From contig JBBCGG010000001.1 of NCBI GenBank assembly GCA_037200525.1, positions 2,770,501-2,834,500 of the forward strand: a stretch of 64,000 nt of DNA, written 5' to 3'. The notes below the pieces were generated by a model that did not search any database, was not told the DNA's origin, and saw only the letters and a list, made by a program, of their open reading frames with translations. This stretch comes from Methylocella sp. Its GTDB lineage: Bacteria; Pseudomonadota; Alphaproteobacteria; Rhizobiales; Beijerinckiaceae. Numbering within the stretch: the first letter of the stretch is position 1; every line of letters starts with the position of its first letter. This document shows positions 26,400-31,257 of the stretch, in pieces. Position numbers and translations under genes: made by a program.

Positions 26400-26762
26400 T
26401 TACTTGTCTTCGGGCGCTGCGGCTTCGTCGGAAGCAGAGCCGGCTCCATTAAAATCCTGACTGAAGGCGCTGGCTTCAGTGGGTGAAAAGGCGCTGCGCC
26501 CCTCGTAAATTTGATCGGGCTGCACGACGCCTATGCTGGGTTCCGCATAACCTGCGTCAGACGTCATCATGGGCCATTGCCCCTGATCTGCTAACGCAAA
26601 ACCCGCCGTCCCGAGAATGATCGCGCCGCTAAACGCCAATCTCAAAGAAAAATGTGTCAATTTCTTTCCCCGCTTCAACAACCGAGCCCGATCCAAAGAC
26701 CACTTACGATTGCCTAACCAGAAACGGCGAAAAAAGTTCCGCCAGAAGGCGTTCTTTTCCAA
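26400..26762 (-). CDS. Hypothetical exported protein downstream of the bufferin operon
   Basis: The open frame reads 120 residues from a TTG at 26762. A more sensible start may be a TTG at 26659, giving a signal-like LRLAFSGAIILGTAGFALA followed by an acidic, Ser/Ala-rich mature part ending SASDEAAAPEDK. No Cys and no recognised family. It lies 46 bases after bufD on the same strand and may be the last gene of that operon. Confidence in the start is low. Confidence 0.5.
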   Translation of the reverse strand: MEKNAFWRNFFRRFWLGNRKWSLDRARLLKRGKKLTHFSLRLAFSGAIILGTAGFALADQGQWPMMTSDAGYAEPSIGVVQPDQIYEGRSAFSPTEASAFSQDFNGAGSASDEAAAPEDK

Positions 26763-26808: not shown

Positions 26809-27285
26809 TCAGGCTTTGGGCGAACGACGAAAAAACCGCCCCAGCAAATAATCCAGCGAAATGACGCCCGGACCCCGCGCGATGACGACAAGGAAGCAGG
26901 TCGCCCAGACGCCGTGGGTTGGCCAGGCGTCAGGATAGACGAAAGTCTCGATCACGAGAGTCATGCCGAGCAAGGCCAGCGCGGCGAAACGACTGGCGAG
27001 GCCGAGAACGAGCAGGACCGGGAAGAAATGCTCGGAAAAGGCGGAGATATGGGCCGCTACGGACGGGTCGATCAGGGGCAGGCGATATTCATCGCGAAAG
27101 AGGTCGACAGCGCTATCGCTCAAATGCCAACCCTCGACCTTGGTTTCTCCGGACATCCAAAAAACCGCGGCCGGGAAAATCCTCGCGCATAGCGAGATAA
27201 AGGATTGTGGAATCTTATCCAGAATCGTGATGATGGCGCTTACGGGATGGGTCCGCGCTGAATCCAAATCGCTTCGTACGCTCAT
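26809..27285 (-). CDS. DoxX family membrane protein of the bufferin operon (BufD-like)
   Basis: A 158-residue protein with four hydrophobic segments and the DoxX features FPAAVFWMSGETKVEGW and SEHFFPVLLVLGLASRFAAL. DoxX proteins are the usual fourth component (BufD) of bufferin operons, where a membrane redox or transport partner role has been proposed. It starts 15 bases after bufC. The C-terminus is basic (GRFFRRSPKA). Assignment to the bufferin system rests on gene context. Confidence 0.88.
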   Translation of the reverse strand: MSVRSDLDSARTHPVSAIITILDKIPQSFISLCARIFPAAVFWMSGETKVEGWHLSDSAVDLFRDEYRLPLIDPSVAAHISAFSEHFFPVLLVLGLASRFAALALLGMTLVIETFVYPDAWPTHGVWATCFLVVIARGPGVISLDYLLGRFFRRSPKA

Positions 27286-27300
27286 AATGGAATATCTTTC

Positions 27301-28062
27301 TTAGGTCGGACTTGTAAATGCGATGGCGAGGCCGGCGCTAAACAGAAGGGCGAGATTGATCGCAAGATCGAAATCCGGGCTCGCGCTCTGCGCGCGCTCC
27401 GCAGCCTCGCCGAGCGGCTCGCCGGCTTTGAGGCTTTGCAGAAATGTTCCGGCTCCGGGAGGCAATCGGCGAACTTCGATGTTGCGCCAGGGCCGCACGA
27501 TCAGCGCGTCTTCGCCGCTCCAATCGTCAAGCGGAGCCAGGGCGATTTCATCGACGTTCATCGCCCAAATGGTGACTGCGGGAAATGGCGAGGCAATGAT
27601 TTCAAGCGAGGGGTGTAACGCGAATCGGAGATCGCCCAAGGCTTCGACAGCGACGCTCGCGAGGGCTACTTGAGACAAAGGCTCAGCGTCGGCGGCGTGA
27701 TAGGCGCGCATTCGCGCGGTCTCGATGCGCGCCACATCGGCGAGATAGACAATTTCGGCTGCCGGTTCGAACGCTGCGATGAAATCCGGGAAGTCATCGC
27801 CATAGACCATCATCATCGGAGAGCGGGGCGGATGCGCCGTGGCGAAGGCGCGCGCCATCGCCTTGAAGAAATCTTCGCCGACGATGCGTTTCGTCGCCGG
27901 AAAACGCGCCTCTAGCGCGCCAATGAGACCAACCATCACATTGTTGCGATAGACGCCGAATCTTTTCTGCGGAATCTGCGCGGTGTGCGAGACGAGGCCG
28001 GACGGCAACGCCAAATCGGAGTCGAGCAGGGCGGCGGCGAATGCGCTTTCTGATGTTTGCAC
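27301..28062 (-). CDS. DUF2063 protein, MNIO partner (BufC/HvfC-like)
   Basis: A 253-residue protein. The N-terminal DUF2063 domain is recognisable by RFGVYRNNVMVGLIGALEAR, FPATKRIVGEDFFKAMARAF and the following AHPPRSP. In characterised MNIO systems such partners bind the precursor leader and present it to the DUF692 enzyme; the older 'DNA-binding' label is not supported. The C-terminal domain is more variable. It begins 24 bases after bufB, in the conserved order A-B-C-D. Confidence 0.9.
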   Translation of the reverse strand: MQTSESAFAAALLDSDLALPSGLVSHTAQIPQKRFGVYRNNVMVGLIGALEARFPATKRIVGEDFFKAMARAFATAHPPRSPMMMVYGDDFPDFIAAFEPAAEIVYLADVARIETARMRAYHAADAEPLSQVALASVAVEALGDLRFALHPSLEIIASPFPAVTIWAMNVDEIALAPLDDWSGEDALIVRPWRNIEVRRLPPGAGTFLQSLKAGEPLGEAAERAQSASPDFDLAINLALLFSAGLAIAFTSPT

Positions 28063-28086
28063 GACGGCTGGATCTCCCTGTGTCGC

Positions 28087-28953
28087 TCACGCGGTCGATT
28101 GCGTCCCGGAGGCGGCTGCGCGATCAAGATGCATTTGCGCCGCCAGGGCTTCATCGCGCAGGGTTGGCCAATCCGGCACGTCATTGTCCCATTCGATCAA
28201 TGTCGGGAGCGGTCCGGCGCGGCGGATAACGCTATCGAAAAGCGCAAAAACATCCTCGATGACCGGCGATCCATGCGCGTCAATGCAGAGAGGCGCGCCC
28301 GCGTCGTCCACCGTCTCGAAGTGACCGGCGAGATGGATTTCGCCAACGCGATCCAGCGGAAATTCGGCAAGATAAGCGCGCGCGTGGGCGCCATGATTGC
28401 GCGTTGAAACGAATACGTTGTTGATGTCGAGCAGCAAGCCGCAGCCGGTTGCGCGCGCGATCTCATTTAAAAAGGCGGTCTCTGGAATGGAGCTCTCGGC
28501 AAAGCGCACGTAAGTCGCGGGATTTTCGAGCAGCATGCGGCGCCCGAGCGCGGTCTGCACCTCGTCGACGTGGGCGATGACGTTCGCCAAGGTCGTCTCC
28601 GTGTAAGGAAGCGGCAAAAGATCGTTGAAAAAAACGCCGTCGTGCGTGGACCAGGCGAGATGTTCCGAAAAGCTCTGCGGCTGATAGCGATCGCAAAGCT
28701 GCTTTAAGCGCGAGAGGTGCGCGCGATCGAGGGGCGCGATAGAGCCAATCGATAGGCCAACGCCATGTACGGACAATGCGTAATCCGCGCGGAGAGCCCG
28801 AAGCTGTGCGTGCGGCAGTCCCCCCGCGCCCATATAATTTTCGGCATGGACCTCGAAAAAGCCGAGCGGCTGATGCGCGGCCGCGATGGCCTCGAAGTGC
28901 TCCGGCTTAATGCCGACGCCGACGCTGGCTGGAAGCTTTGACGGATATGGCAT
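28087..28953 (-). CDS. DUF692 multinuclear non-heme iron oxygenase (BufB-like MNIO)
   Basis: A 288-residue TIM-barrel enzyme of the DUF692/MNIO family, which modifies Cys in peptide precursors. Metal-ligand regions are visible: [68 protein letters not shown] and IEWDNDVPD. The ATG at 28953 gives the family-typical start ([18 protein letters not shown]). It lies downstream of two DUF2282 precursors and upstream of the DUF2063 partner. By analogy to bufferins it should convert core Cys residues to thiooxazole-type heterocycles; that chemistry is inference here. Confidence 0.93.
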
Positions 28954-28997
28954 AGACTTTGGCCCTCTGCCGCTTTCTTTTGAAACAGGCTTATGAG

Positions 28998-29026
28998 GCG
29001 GGCGCGCGAAATTTCCGCGCGCCCGC
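28998..29026 (-). terminator. GC-rich hairpin between the second precursor and bufB
   Basis: GCGGGCGCGCG and CGCGCGCCCGC form a perfect 11-bp stem with a 7-base loop, 10 bases after the precursor stop. There is no U-run, so it is more likely an attenuator or a 3'-end stabilising stem than a full terminator. Confidence 0.65.
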
Positions 29027-29035
29027 TGAGGCTGA

Positions 29036-29326
29036 TTACATCTTGATGGGGGTCGAGGAGCCCATGCCGTTCGGCGTTTTAATCGTCGTGCATGTTCCCT
29101 TGGGGACCAAGCTCCAGTGCGCGCCGTCATAGTCGATCTTCGACGTGCCGGCGCAGGTAGTCCCAGCGCCGGCGGCGCAATCATTGTGACCCTTTAGCGC
29201 GACGCCAAAGCACTTTTCCTTAGCCGAGCCCGCGTCATCGGCGGAGGCCGGCGCAGCGATAAGCGTGAGCGCCGTGGCGAAAGCGCCCGCAAGCATCGCG
29301 GCCGAGATGTCAGTCTTGGTGACCAT
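29036..29326 (-). CDS. Bufferin-type RiPP precursor, DUF2282 (BufA1-like), proximal to bufB
   Basis: A 96-residue precursor. A signal peptide ([20 protein letters not shown] then TLIAAPASA) precedes a core with four Cys: [31 protein letters not shown] and LVPKGTC. The KCxG...GHNDC...TCAG spacing is the DUF2282 signature. In bufferins the exported modified peptide binds copper in the periplasm. GAGGA precedes the ATG. A strong hairpin separates it from bufB. It is 222 bases from a paralogous precursor of identical length. Confidence 0.92.
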
Positions 29327-29503
29327 GATTATGTCCTCTATCCAAACAAGACCCGCAGCATAGAAGGAACAATTTCTCTTGGCATCAGGCGTTCGCATAA
29401 GTCAGCGGCACTCGCGGCTCCATACGAGCTTCCCGCAAAAGCCTCGGCACGCGATCGTAAATCGCCCCCCGTCAAAGATCAGATCAAACGGCTGACATCA
29501 TAA

Positions 29504-29531
29504 GAGGCGCGCGGAAAACGCCACGCGCCTC
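29504..29531 (-). terminator. Hairpin between the two bufferin precursors
   Basis: GAGGCGCG and CGCGCCTC form a perfect 8-bp stem around a 12-base loop, 16 bases after the stop of the first precursor gene. It parallels the hairpin after the second precursor and probably limits readthrough or protects the upstream mRNA. Confidence 0.5.
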
Positions 29532-29547
29532 GAGACCGGTTTGGCGA

Positions 29548-29838
29548 TTAGGTCGGCGACAGCGAGCCGGCGCCCTTCGGGGTTTTGATCGTGTCGCAAG
29601 TGCCCTTGGCGACGTATTTCCAAGCATTGCCCTGATAGTCAGCCTTTGCGGTGCCGGCGCAAGAGGTGCCAGCGCCAGCCTTGCAATCATTGTGGCCCGC
29701 GAGTGAAATGCCGTAGCACTTATCTTTATCGGGCTGCGGCGCGACCGGGCCGGCGGAAGCCGGGGCTGCGAGAAGCGTGAGCGCTGTGGCGAAAGCGCCG
29801 GCAAGCGTGGCTGCGGATATCTGGGTCTTGGTGATCAT
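29548..29838 (-). CDS. Bufferin-type RiPP precursor, DUF2282 (BufA1-like), promoter-proximal copy
   Basis: A 96-residue paralogue of the precursor at 29036-29326. The signal part ([20 protein letters not shown]) is nearly the same. The linker differs ([11 protein letters not shown]), and the four core Cys are conserved in [30 protein letters not shown] and VAKGTC. The ribosome-site region GGATAGAGGA before the ATG is shared with the other copy. It is the first gene after the divergent sigma-type promoter, so it should be the most highly transcribed member. Confidence 0.92.
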
Positions 29839-29939
29839 GGCTATTTCCTCTATCCAAACGATATTCGCGGTGCAGCGGAGCGATCCTGTTTGGTCTCGCC
29901 CTGCGGTAGGCTTGGACGCATCCGTCCTACGCCCATTTC

Positions 29940-29965
29940 TTCGCGGCATTGAGGGCTGGCGTTAC
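29940..29965 (-). promoter_or_regulatory. ECF-sigma promoter of the bufferin operon
   Basis: On the reverse strand GTAACG (29965-29960) is followed after 16 bases by CGAA (29943-29940). The same motif with the same spacing stands in front of the divergent sigma gene. As I recall, Caulobacter SigF promoters carry GTAACC and CGAA, so the match is meaningful. The leader to the first precursor would be about 95 bases. Confidence 0.78.
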
Positions 29966-30022
29966 GCATCTTGAGTTTTTTCTTCCATAACGAAAAAGTG
30001 ATGCGCCAACGCCTTTTGAGAT

Positions 30023-30048
30023 GTAACGCCGCTGCTGCGGCTGCCGAA
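30023..30048 (+). promoter_or_regulatory. ECF-sigma autoregulated promoter of the sigma/anti-sigma pair
   Basis: GTAACG (30023-30028), 16 bases, CGAA (30045-30048), identical in sequence and spacing to the reverse-strand promoter of the bufferin operon. It implies the sigma factor transcribes its own gene. It also places the transcript start near 30055, which argues against the TTG at 30053 as start codon. Confidence 0.78.
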
Positions 30049-30067
30049 ACGATTGAGTGGGACGCGC

Positions 30068-30625
30068 GTGCGCGACGGTAATCCAGAAAAGGAATGGGCT
30101 GTGCTGATGCGCGCCGGCAATGCGGGCGATGCAGATTGTTATCAGCGATTGCTGCGCGAGCTGACGCCGCCGCTTCGGTCATTTGCGGCCAGGGGGCTTG
30201 CTCGCGCCGGAATGGCGACGACCGATGCGGAGGACATCGTCCAGGAGACCCTGCTTGCGGTTCATCTCAAGCGTCAAACCTGGGATGAGAATGCTCCGCT
30301 TGCGCCTTGGCTTTTCGCGATAGCGCGCCACAAAGTCATTGATGCGCTGCGTCGCCGCGGCCGCCGGGTGGAGGTTTCGATCGATGATTTCGTGGAGGTG
30401 CTGGGCGTTGCCGATGATCAACTGACTTCAATCGTCGCCGATGTCGATCGTCACCTCGAGTGCCTGCCGAGCGGACAGCGCAATGTCGTTAGATTCATTG
30501 CAGTCGAAGGCGCTTCGATTGATCAAGCCGCCGCCCTTCTTTCGATGAGCAACGGGGCAGTCCGCGTGGCTCTGCATCGTGGGCTTGCGACGCTCGCCGC
30601 CAAATTCCGGAGCACCGACTCGTGA
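30068..30625 (+). CDS. ECF sigma factor, SigF-like, controlling the bufferin locus
   Basis: About 185 residues. Region 2 reads YQRLLRELTPPLRSFAARGL, TDAEDIVQETLLAVHLKRQ and APWLFAIARHKVIDALRRRG. Region 4 reads ECLPSGQRNVVRFIAVEGAS and AAALLSMSNGAVRVALHRGL. The start is uncertain: GTG at 30068 is my choice because the mapped promoter excludes the TTG at 30053; a GTG at 30101 with AAGGA upstream is another option. The anti-sigma gene overlaps its stop. The pairing with a DUF1109 anti-sigma is that of Caulobacter SigF-NrsF. Confidence 0.9.
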   Translation: MRDGNPEKEWAVLMRAGNAGDADCYQRLLRELTPPLRSFAARGLARAGMATTDAEDIVQETLLAVHLKRQTWDENAPLAPWLFAIARHKVIDALRRRGRRVEVSIDDFVEVLGVADDQLTSIVADVDRHLECLPSGQRNVVRFIAVEGASIDQAAALLSMSNGAVRVALHRGLATLAAKFRSTDS

Positions 30626-31257
30626 AGACCGCTGACCTCATTCGCGCCCTTTCCGCCGACAAGGTTGTTTCGCCTTCGCCCCGGCGCGCCCTGGCGCTCG
30701 CTTTGACGCCGGGCGTTGCAATCGCGCTTTGCTTTTATTTTGGGATTGTGGGCCTCAGGCCGCATTTCCTGACGCTGCTCGGCGAGCCGAGGTTGCTTTT
30801 CAAGGTTTGCCTGACGGCGTTGTTCGTCGCGCTCTCCGCAATGCTCGTCTTGCGCGTCGCGCGCCCTGGGGCCGACGCGCAAAGCCCCGCTCGTCTTATG
30901 GCGATCGCACCCGCTTTGCTGGCGATTGCCGTCGTGGCCGAACTTTTTGCCGTTCCCGCTGCGCACTGGAGCCATCAGATGATCGGAAGTAATTCGATGT
31001 TCTGCATGAAGACCATACCTTTCCTGGCCTTGGCTCCGCTTGTCGGCATTCTGATCGCCTTGCGCAATGGCGCTCCAGAACGTCCCGCGCTGGCTGGCGC
31101 GGTCGCTGGACTTTTCGCCGGCGCGATCGGCGCGCTGCTTTATGCGACGCATTGCCCTGATGATTCGCCGCTGTTCGTCGCGGTGTGGTATTCCTTGGCC
31201 ATCGCCATCGTCACTGCGATTGGCGCAGCAGTAGGGTCGCGGCTGTTGCGGTGGTGA
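30622..31257 (+). CDS. NrsF-like anti-sigma factor, DUF1109
   Basis: A 211-residue inner-membrane protein with about six hydrophobic helices after a short cytoplasmic start (MKTADLIRALSADKVV). Two Cys sit at conserved-looking places, SMFCMKTIPFLALAP and ATHCPDDSPLF. In Caulobacter NrsF, two Cys are needed to sense metals and release SigF. The GTG start overlaps the sigma stop by 4 bases (GTGA). It divides the sigma operon from an Ada-like fragment on the other strand. Confidence 0.9.
   Translation: MKTADLIRALSADKVVSPSPRRALALALTPGVAIALCFYFGIVGLRPHFLTLLGEPRLLFKVCLTALFVALSAMLVLRVARPGADAQSPARLMAIAPALLAIAVVAELFAVPAAHWSHQMIGSNSMFCMKTIPFLALAPLVGILIALRNGAPERPALAGAVAGLFAGAIGALLYATHCPDDSPLFVAVWYSLAIAIVTAIGAAVGSRLLRW

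Follow-up and report, generated by a model that had tools for sequence, protein, structure and literature searches.

How does a single modifying enzyme come to stand behind two different bufferin precursors, and what switches such a cluster on? The question is raised by positions 26,809 to 31,257 of a 64,000-nucleotide stretch of Methylocella sp. DNA (assembly GCA_037200525.1, contig JBBCGG010000001.1, positions 2,770,501 to 2,834,500; the whole stretch is hereafter the window), which lies inside a complete 5.24-Mb genome. A first-pass annotation had read this segment as a bufferin-type locus with its own sigma/anti-sigma pair, and this is borne out by protein families, the order of the genes, promoter signatures in both directions and counterparts in Caulobacter and Sinorhizobium. 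The locus is an ordinary, complete bufferin cluster of an already described arrangement, bufferin clusters with sigma/NrsF and likewise with tandem precursors being already in print (here and below, statements from the literature refer to the portions of each paper on which we drew). What is uncommon about it is that two different precursors stand beside one modifying enzyme. We consider it very likely that this is a Buf1 (captophorin) locus placed under its own extracytoplasmic function (ECF) sigma factor of the ECF16 kind and the cognate anti-sigma factor, with the mechanism set out below.

The five genes of the operon lie on the reverse strand in the order A-A-B-C-D, divergent from the two regulatory genes as annotated, and a profile search placed all seven products above the Pfam cut-offs, the named families DUF2282, DUF692, DUF2063, DoxX and DUF1109 included. 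BufA-1 (29548..29838) and BufA-2 (29036..29326) are precursors of 96 amino acids each that both fall inside DUF2282 (PF10048, 84.6 and 83.7 bits, cut-off 22.4). They are followed by BufB, a multinuclear non-haem iron oxidative enzyme (MNIO) of the DUF692 family (28087..28953; PF05114 MbnB_TglH_ChrH, 344 bits, cut-off 25) that also passes the NCBIfam model NF050167 MNIO_BufB (376 vs 310 bits), then by its DUF2063 partner BufC of PME type 1 (27301..28062; PF09836, 96 bits, cut-off 27.2) and by BufD, a DoxX-family membrane protein (26809..27285; PF07681, 59 bits, cut-off 23.6); a DoxX gene is a common though not invariable member of Buf1 operons. On the forward strand, a SigF/ECF16-type ECF sigma factor (about 30068..30625, start codon uncertain; NF009165, 266 bits, cut-off 198), with sigma-70 regions 2 and 4 above the Pfam cut-off, shares a four-base GTGA overlap with the reading frame of NrsF, the DUF1109 anti-sigma factor (30622..31257; PF06532, 188.5 bits, cut-off 26.8). 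Of solved structures, the MNIO 3bww aligns with BufB at E 2.4e-35 and MbnB chains do so less strongly; stretches of BufB such as EN, DxNN, HxAGH and DxHG, within which lie the residues that we take to bind iron, are in register with 3bww. No PDB sequence matched BufC at E <= 0.1.

Two other identities were considered and rejected. The precursors score far under the cut-off of the BufA2 model (23.4 and 21.8 bits vs 60) and have four cysteines, not six or more, so that they are Buf1 and not Buf2, the 6/12-Cys kind. A methanobactin cluster is likewise rejected, the MbnB model reaching 56.5 bits vs 325 and the genome holding no second PF05114 match.

The gap between the two transcription units (29839-30067) contains an exact GTAAC-N17-CGAA in both directions. 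One copy faces the precursor operon (29940..29965, reverse strand) and ends 101 nt before the ATG of BufA-1; the other, likewise an exact sequence match, faces the sigma-nrsF operon (30023..30048, forward strand). The published ECF16 consensus is (T/C)GTAAC-N17-CGAA (PMC8315932) and the Caulobacter SigF promoter GTAACC-N16-CGAA (PMC3511200); judged from their sequence, both promoters of the window are probably of the ECF16 type. At 60 related divergent loci, the signature was found facing the precursor in 49, facing the sigma gene in 56, on both sides in 46 and on at least one side in 59, for a shuffle expectation of 0.25 and 0.27 loci. This count allowed a spacer of 16-18 and a -10 element of CGAA or CGTA, and omitted the window, the duplicates L104 and L107, and L094. 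The -10 element had been widened from CGAA to CGWA after the Rhizobium gaps had been viewed; with strict CGAA, the signature is present in 28/62 and 32/62 divergent loci, the window and L094 included. Where no divergent sigma gene is in view, the signature still precedes the precursor in 23 of 47 loci, as if these were served by a sigma factor encoded elsewhere. No site within one mismatch was detected in the gap between the two precursor genes that could give BufA-2 a promoter of its own. Over the whole window at one mismatch, the 7 signature matches are not above the 9.66 expected; the signature alone is thus uninformative, and it is the exact pair together with its conservation that carries weight. 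The sigma codon TTG 30053 sits about at the expected transcription start, so that translation likelier begins near GTG 30068.

The annotation had credited the DUF1109 protein with two cysteines. There are in fact four (37, 63, 128 and 178), and the claim stands for the conserved pair among them: C128 and C178 do not vary across eight aligned NrsF sequences, window included, and are 50 residues apart, the same distance as C131 and C181 of Caulobacter NrsF, whose replacement derepresses the regulon (PMC3511200). The sigma factor adjoins an NrsF/DUF1109 protein with the conserved cysteine pair, as expected of ECF16 (SigF-NrsF).

The main point of the locus is its two precursors. BufA-1 and BufA-2 alike have four cysteines with the spacing 10-7-20 and, judged by eye, an apparent signal peptide; in Buf1, modification falls on the central two cysteines, and a disulphide joins the outer two (PMC12452194). 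They belong to different subtypes, BufA-1 to a "GP" type and BufA-2 to an "E" type (KEKCFG), which were distinguished by eye and by tree and named after the sequences had been viewed. The complete genome contains two DUF2282 genes, one MNIO (the sole PF05114 match) and one NrsF, so a single enzyme must serve both precursors if both are modified. Alternatively, one precursor only could be the true substrate of BufB, the other being in decay or left unmodified and binding copper, if at all, through plain cysteines. We regard this as rather improbable: 9 of the 12 members of the Methylocapsa acidiphila genus that were read show one precursor, meaning that one can suffice, and unmodified precursors are thought possible in print, but both window precursors keep the apparent signal peptide, the four cysteines and family scores near 84 bits, both frames are open without stops, and three species of the genus have the pair. 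The reading in which BufB acts on both precursors is preferred.

Two DUF2282 genes occur in 3 of 15 genomes of this genus. By type, the 12 members read divide into 3 with both, 3 with GP only and 6 with E only; this census omitted G076, G200 and G203, and since the G159 precursor lies near a contig edge, the draft assembly may be lacking a second copy. A branch with support 88/90 separates the GP rows from the E rows in the protein tree, and the two window precursors do not group; forcing them together gives p-AU (approximately unbiased test) 0.033. A recent duplication of BufA-1 or BufA-2 is thereby disfavoured. Holding the seven GP rows alone together gives p-AU 0.077, with Ancylobacter rows falling inside, so that any reading of the deeper history is tentative. 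The simplest reading of the type distribution and the tree is an old pair with reciprocal loss in the genus, and the precursors are probably such a pair and not a recent copy. Against this reading, DNA identities do not clearly separate the two types: the cysteine-bearing DNA of BufA-1 matches its M. acidiphila counterpart at 118/174 positions and the other M. acidiphila precursor at 123/174, so that the types rest on the protein and on the N-terminal stretch. The 25-nt leaders of the window pair match at 20/25 positions, for 32-65% in other pairs, a likeness that may reflect conversion. Over the first 84 coding bases, the window pair matches at 69/84, hardly above BufA-1 and the second M. acidiphila precursor (61/75).

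The cysteine spacing of tandem pairs was compared more widely. Leaving the window aside, 23 of 24 tandem loci have central cysteines spaced by 6 in the first precursor and by 7 in the second. The 7/7 spacing is shared by the window, M. acidiphila, and G199 and G058, the latter two added to the 24 afterwards; it is thus a minority type, which among the 26 tandem loci compared with the window occurs in 3. Among the 80 named relative loci, which are the best 80 of 584 by likeness to the window BufB, 78 have 2.5 kb or more of sequence ahead of BufB (L004 and L006 dropped). A divergent sigma gene is present in 44 of these, and all 20 loci with tandem precursors are among them, for 0 of the 34 without; the Fisher p of 9e-7 is overstated, the rows being related (many are Rhizobium). 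Across the 109 loci with a BufB match, the precursor is preceded by a divergent sigma gene in 61 (25 tandem, 36 single precursor); L104 repeats L006 and L107 repeats L005 in this set, and the flanks of many loci end early, missing genes not being scored as absent. When the family was sampled evenly, DUF2282 turned up in 70 of 199 genomes, 7 of which, the window's own among them, have two copies next to each other.

We put forward, as a conjecture that we would sooner bet against than for, that tandem bufferins are not dosage copies but standing pairs of different bufferins made by one MNIO, kept only beside their own sigma factor, and that each member has a copper site or a partner metal of its own. 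The Rhizobium type would differ by the 6 vs 7 cysteine spacing; in the Methylocapsa type, which includes the window, the cysteine frame is the same and the two members would differ in the N-terminal stretch and in loops, with species losing one or the other reciprocally. Neither the spacing rule nor the reciprocal loss was found in the parts of PMC12452194, PMC3511200 and PMC13097082 consulted, the 2024 PNAS bufferin paper being outside the scope, and a literature search with Methylocapsa as a term gave, among the matches listed, none that joins it to bufferin terms.

Each precursor gene of the window is followed by a strong hairpin with no T run behind it. One is just after BufA-1 (29504..29531, reverse strand; -21.7 kcal/mol, 11 bp) and the other between BufA-2 and bufB (28998..29026, reverse strand; -26.7 kcal/mol, 13 bp). 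The first 120 nt of the gap after BufA-1 fold with z -1.96, and the gap from BufA-2 to bufB with z -4.33. The first 120 nt were folded for 106 gaps of 40-260 nt between precursor and BufB, the window's among them; the gap end came from the match and is approximate. Of these gaps, 54 are below z -2 against dinucleotide shuffles, vs 6 of 106 bufB-internal stretches of equal length. The nearest relatives that pass z -2 are L091, L098, L113 and L011. None of the 21 short gaps between Rhizobium-type pairs is below z -2 (two shorter gaps were dropped); L014 does hold a hairpin. We infer a processing or stabilising element that sets the precursor above the enzyme.

Taken with published relatives, these elements suggest the following mechanism. 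While the cell is at rest, the membrane protein NrsF, with its two conserved cysteines, would hold the sigma factor. Envelope stress, most likely excess copper and possibly other thiol-reactive metals or oxidants, would free it to read both GTAAC-N17-CGAA promoters, and sigma-nrsF and bufA-bufA-bufB-bufC-doxX would rise together. The hairpins probably stabilise or trim the message and would so leave more precursor than enzyme. BufB and BufC would turn the two central cysteines of each precursor into thiooxazoles before Sec export, the outer two would form a disulphide, and the mature peptides would bind periplasmic copper. By analogy, the locus may thus provide metal-induced copper buffering in this organism, as the annotation had proposed.

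Copper is our best guess for the inducing signal. In Caulobacter, copper induces the SigF regulon in both media and the sigF mutant is copper-sensitive (PMC8224329). Several observations weigh against the mechanism as a whole. In the portions of the reports drawn on, Cd, chromate and H2O2 each fail to induce Sinorhizobium rpoE7 and its target promoters (PMC6180224), Caulobacter sigF is dispensable for Cr or Cd resistance (PMC3511200), and the gig cluster has no effect on Cu resistance in C. metallidurans (PMC8224329). Three window proteins are under the cut-offs of the NCBIfam models, namely BufC for HvfC (38.9 vs 142), DoxX for HvfX (43.1 vs 80) and NrsF for AntiSigF_NrsF (107.3 vs 300), and the precursor hairpin is weak in the near relatives L004, L005, L006 and L102 (z -0.9 to -1.5). 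The main metal of the cluster could also be another one, such as gold, silver, cadmium or chromate, given that Au, Ag and Cu elicit a response from gig/dax homologues (PMC8224329) and that Cr and Cd do so from Caulobacter SigF targets (PMC3511200). We hold this to be quite improbable: it is for copper that a growth defect of the sigF mutant was shown (PMC8224329), and copper is the metal that Caulobacter Buf1 is reported to chelate (PMC12452194).

Possible further sigma targets bear on whether the signal is a metal at all. The exact signature occurs at 14 sites in the 5.24-Mb genome, vs 47 for the reversed pattern. Outside the locus there are 12, of which 7 are inside mechanical open reading frames (ORFs) of at least 80 aa, 3 are outside such ORFs (one of them 131 nt before a permease-like frame), and 2 precede genes for a secreted methionine sulfoxide reductase MsrA (124 nt upstream; G000:C1:903810-904544, L130) and for a DUF417/RclC-like membrane protein (40 nt upstream; G000:C1:4604678-4605157, L158). 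Within the genus, 4 of 12 secreted MsrA orthologues have the exact signature (CGAA or CGTA), one of the 4 being the own-genome site that prompted the test, which leaves an independent 3/11, for 0/16 other MsrA genes. With one mismatch allowed, the counts become 5/12 (about 0.9 expected) and 0/16 (1.4 expected). As 8 of the 11 other secreted MsrA orthologues lack the signature, sigma control of this gene is not universal. The DUF417 signature was seen at none of 4 homologous loci, two of them overlapping. Secreted MsrA is a possible further target, consistent with the Msr genes that belong to other ECF16 regulons (PMC8224329, PMC8315932), and would then repair oxidised envelope methionines.

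These sites fit a different view, in which reactive oxygen or chlorine species, and not copper, are the main trigger of the sigma factor, the bufferins taking part with methionine sulfoxide reductase in an envelope oxidative-stress response. ECF16 factors that control Msr genes do respond to oxidants in Brucella (HOCl), Azospira (chlorine species) and Bradyrhizobium (oxygen species) (PMC8315932), and the Caulobacter sigF mutant is impaired under stationary-phase oxidative stress (PMC8224329). However, two genes of the Caulobacter SigF regulon rose no more than twofold with H2O2, t-butyl hydroperoxide, paraquat or diamide but exceeded this with Cr or Cd (PMC3511200), copper raises the regulon itself, the Brucella operon beside the ECF16 sigma is a Met-rich peptide with MsrQP and, in the part of the paper drawn on, holds no bufferin genes (PMC8315932), and the DUF417 site is not shared by the homologous loci checked. 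An oxidant as the main signal is therefore unlikely in our view, though to be taken more seriously than a different metal, and we keep copper as the preferred inducer.

Behind the operon, the window reads on into converging genes that we read from their frames, with no model run, as nadC and nadB; M. acidiphila has the same, and nadC also follows the operon in the genus members L165 and L167. No nadC was seen in L166 (G185) within the available 1.2 kb. The chromosomal place of the operon is thus common to at least some species of the genus. Directly downstream of doxX, a small ORF (26400-26762, reverse strand, 120 aa, TTG start) has an apparent signal sequence and no match in Pfam or NCBIfam; a 33%-identical stretch stands at the same place in genome G126 (L165:5340-5615). 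At six loci, mostly of Rhodobacterales (L036, L045, L055, L060, L064 and L069), the sigma gene is downstream of doxX on the same strand, with the anti-sigma gene there in 4. AMO/PmoA, the family of the copper enzyme of methane oxidation, has no match in the window's complete genome and is present in 10 of the 15 genomes of the genus; a search for Phenol_Hydrox matched no control and hence carries no information.

DUF2282 and NrsF were both found in 15 of 15 genomes of the M. acidiphila genus, which places bufferins and ECF16 control throughout the genus as examined. The locus adds to a known kind, and its chief point is the two-substrate pair: one BufB with two divergent precursors is a natural two-substrate test of MNIO specificity. 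The double promoter may aid in finding more regulon members, although it is too short to be reliable alone.

Among known systems, sigF-nrsF and CC3254-CC3257 of Caulobacter vibrioides likewise join a DUF2282-DUF692-DUF2063-DoxX operon to sigF-nrsF, with the promoter signature and the NrsF cysteine pair, but have one precursor where the window has two. The Caulobacter SigF regulon adds a second DUF2282/DUF692/DUF2063 operon and MsrPQ, whereas the window genome has one such operon and possibly the secreted MsrA. In Sinorhizobium meliloti, the four-gene operon SMb20530-SMb20527 is likewise divergent from an ECF16 sigma/anti-sigma pair, rpoE7-ecfR7, with motifs on both sides (PMC6180224), and apparently includes one precursor gene, against two in the window. 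The Rhizobium-type tandem loci (L012, L016, L020) have the NS<AABCD arrangement in common with the window, a single MNIO following two precursors. They differ in the central cysteines, spaced 6 then 7 (for example in L012, L016, L020 and L034) vs 7 and 7, and in a short inter-precursor gap mostly without a hairpin, whereas the window has a hairpin behind each precursor. By identity, the closest among the best 80 of 584 loci are two Methylocapsa and a USC-alpha Beijerinckiaceae metagenome-assembled genome (75-77%). Methylocapsa acidiphila B2 (L005) has no simple hairpin in its two precursor gaps, unlike the window, although its first gap as a whole folds well (z -3.95). It carries the complete NS<AABCD arrangement as in the window, with the same two precursor types in the same order and proteins 63-77% identical to their window counterparts, protein by protein, and its precursors are identical to those of G172, of the same genus.

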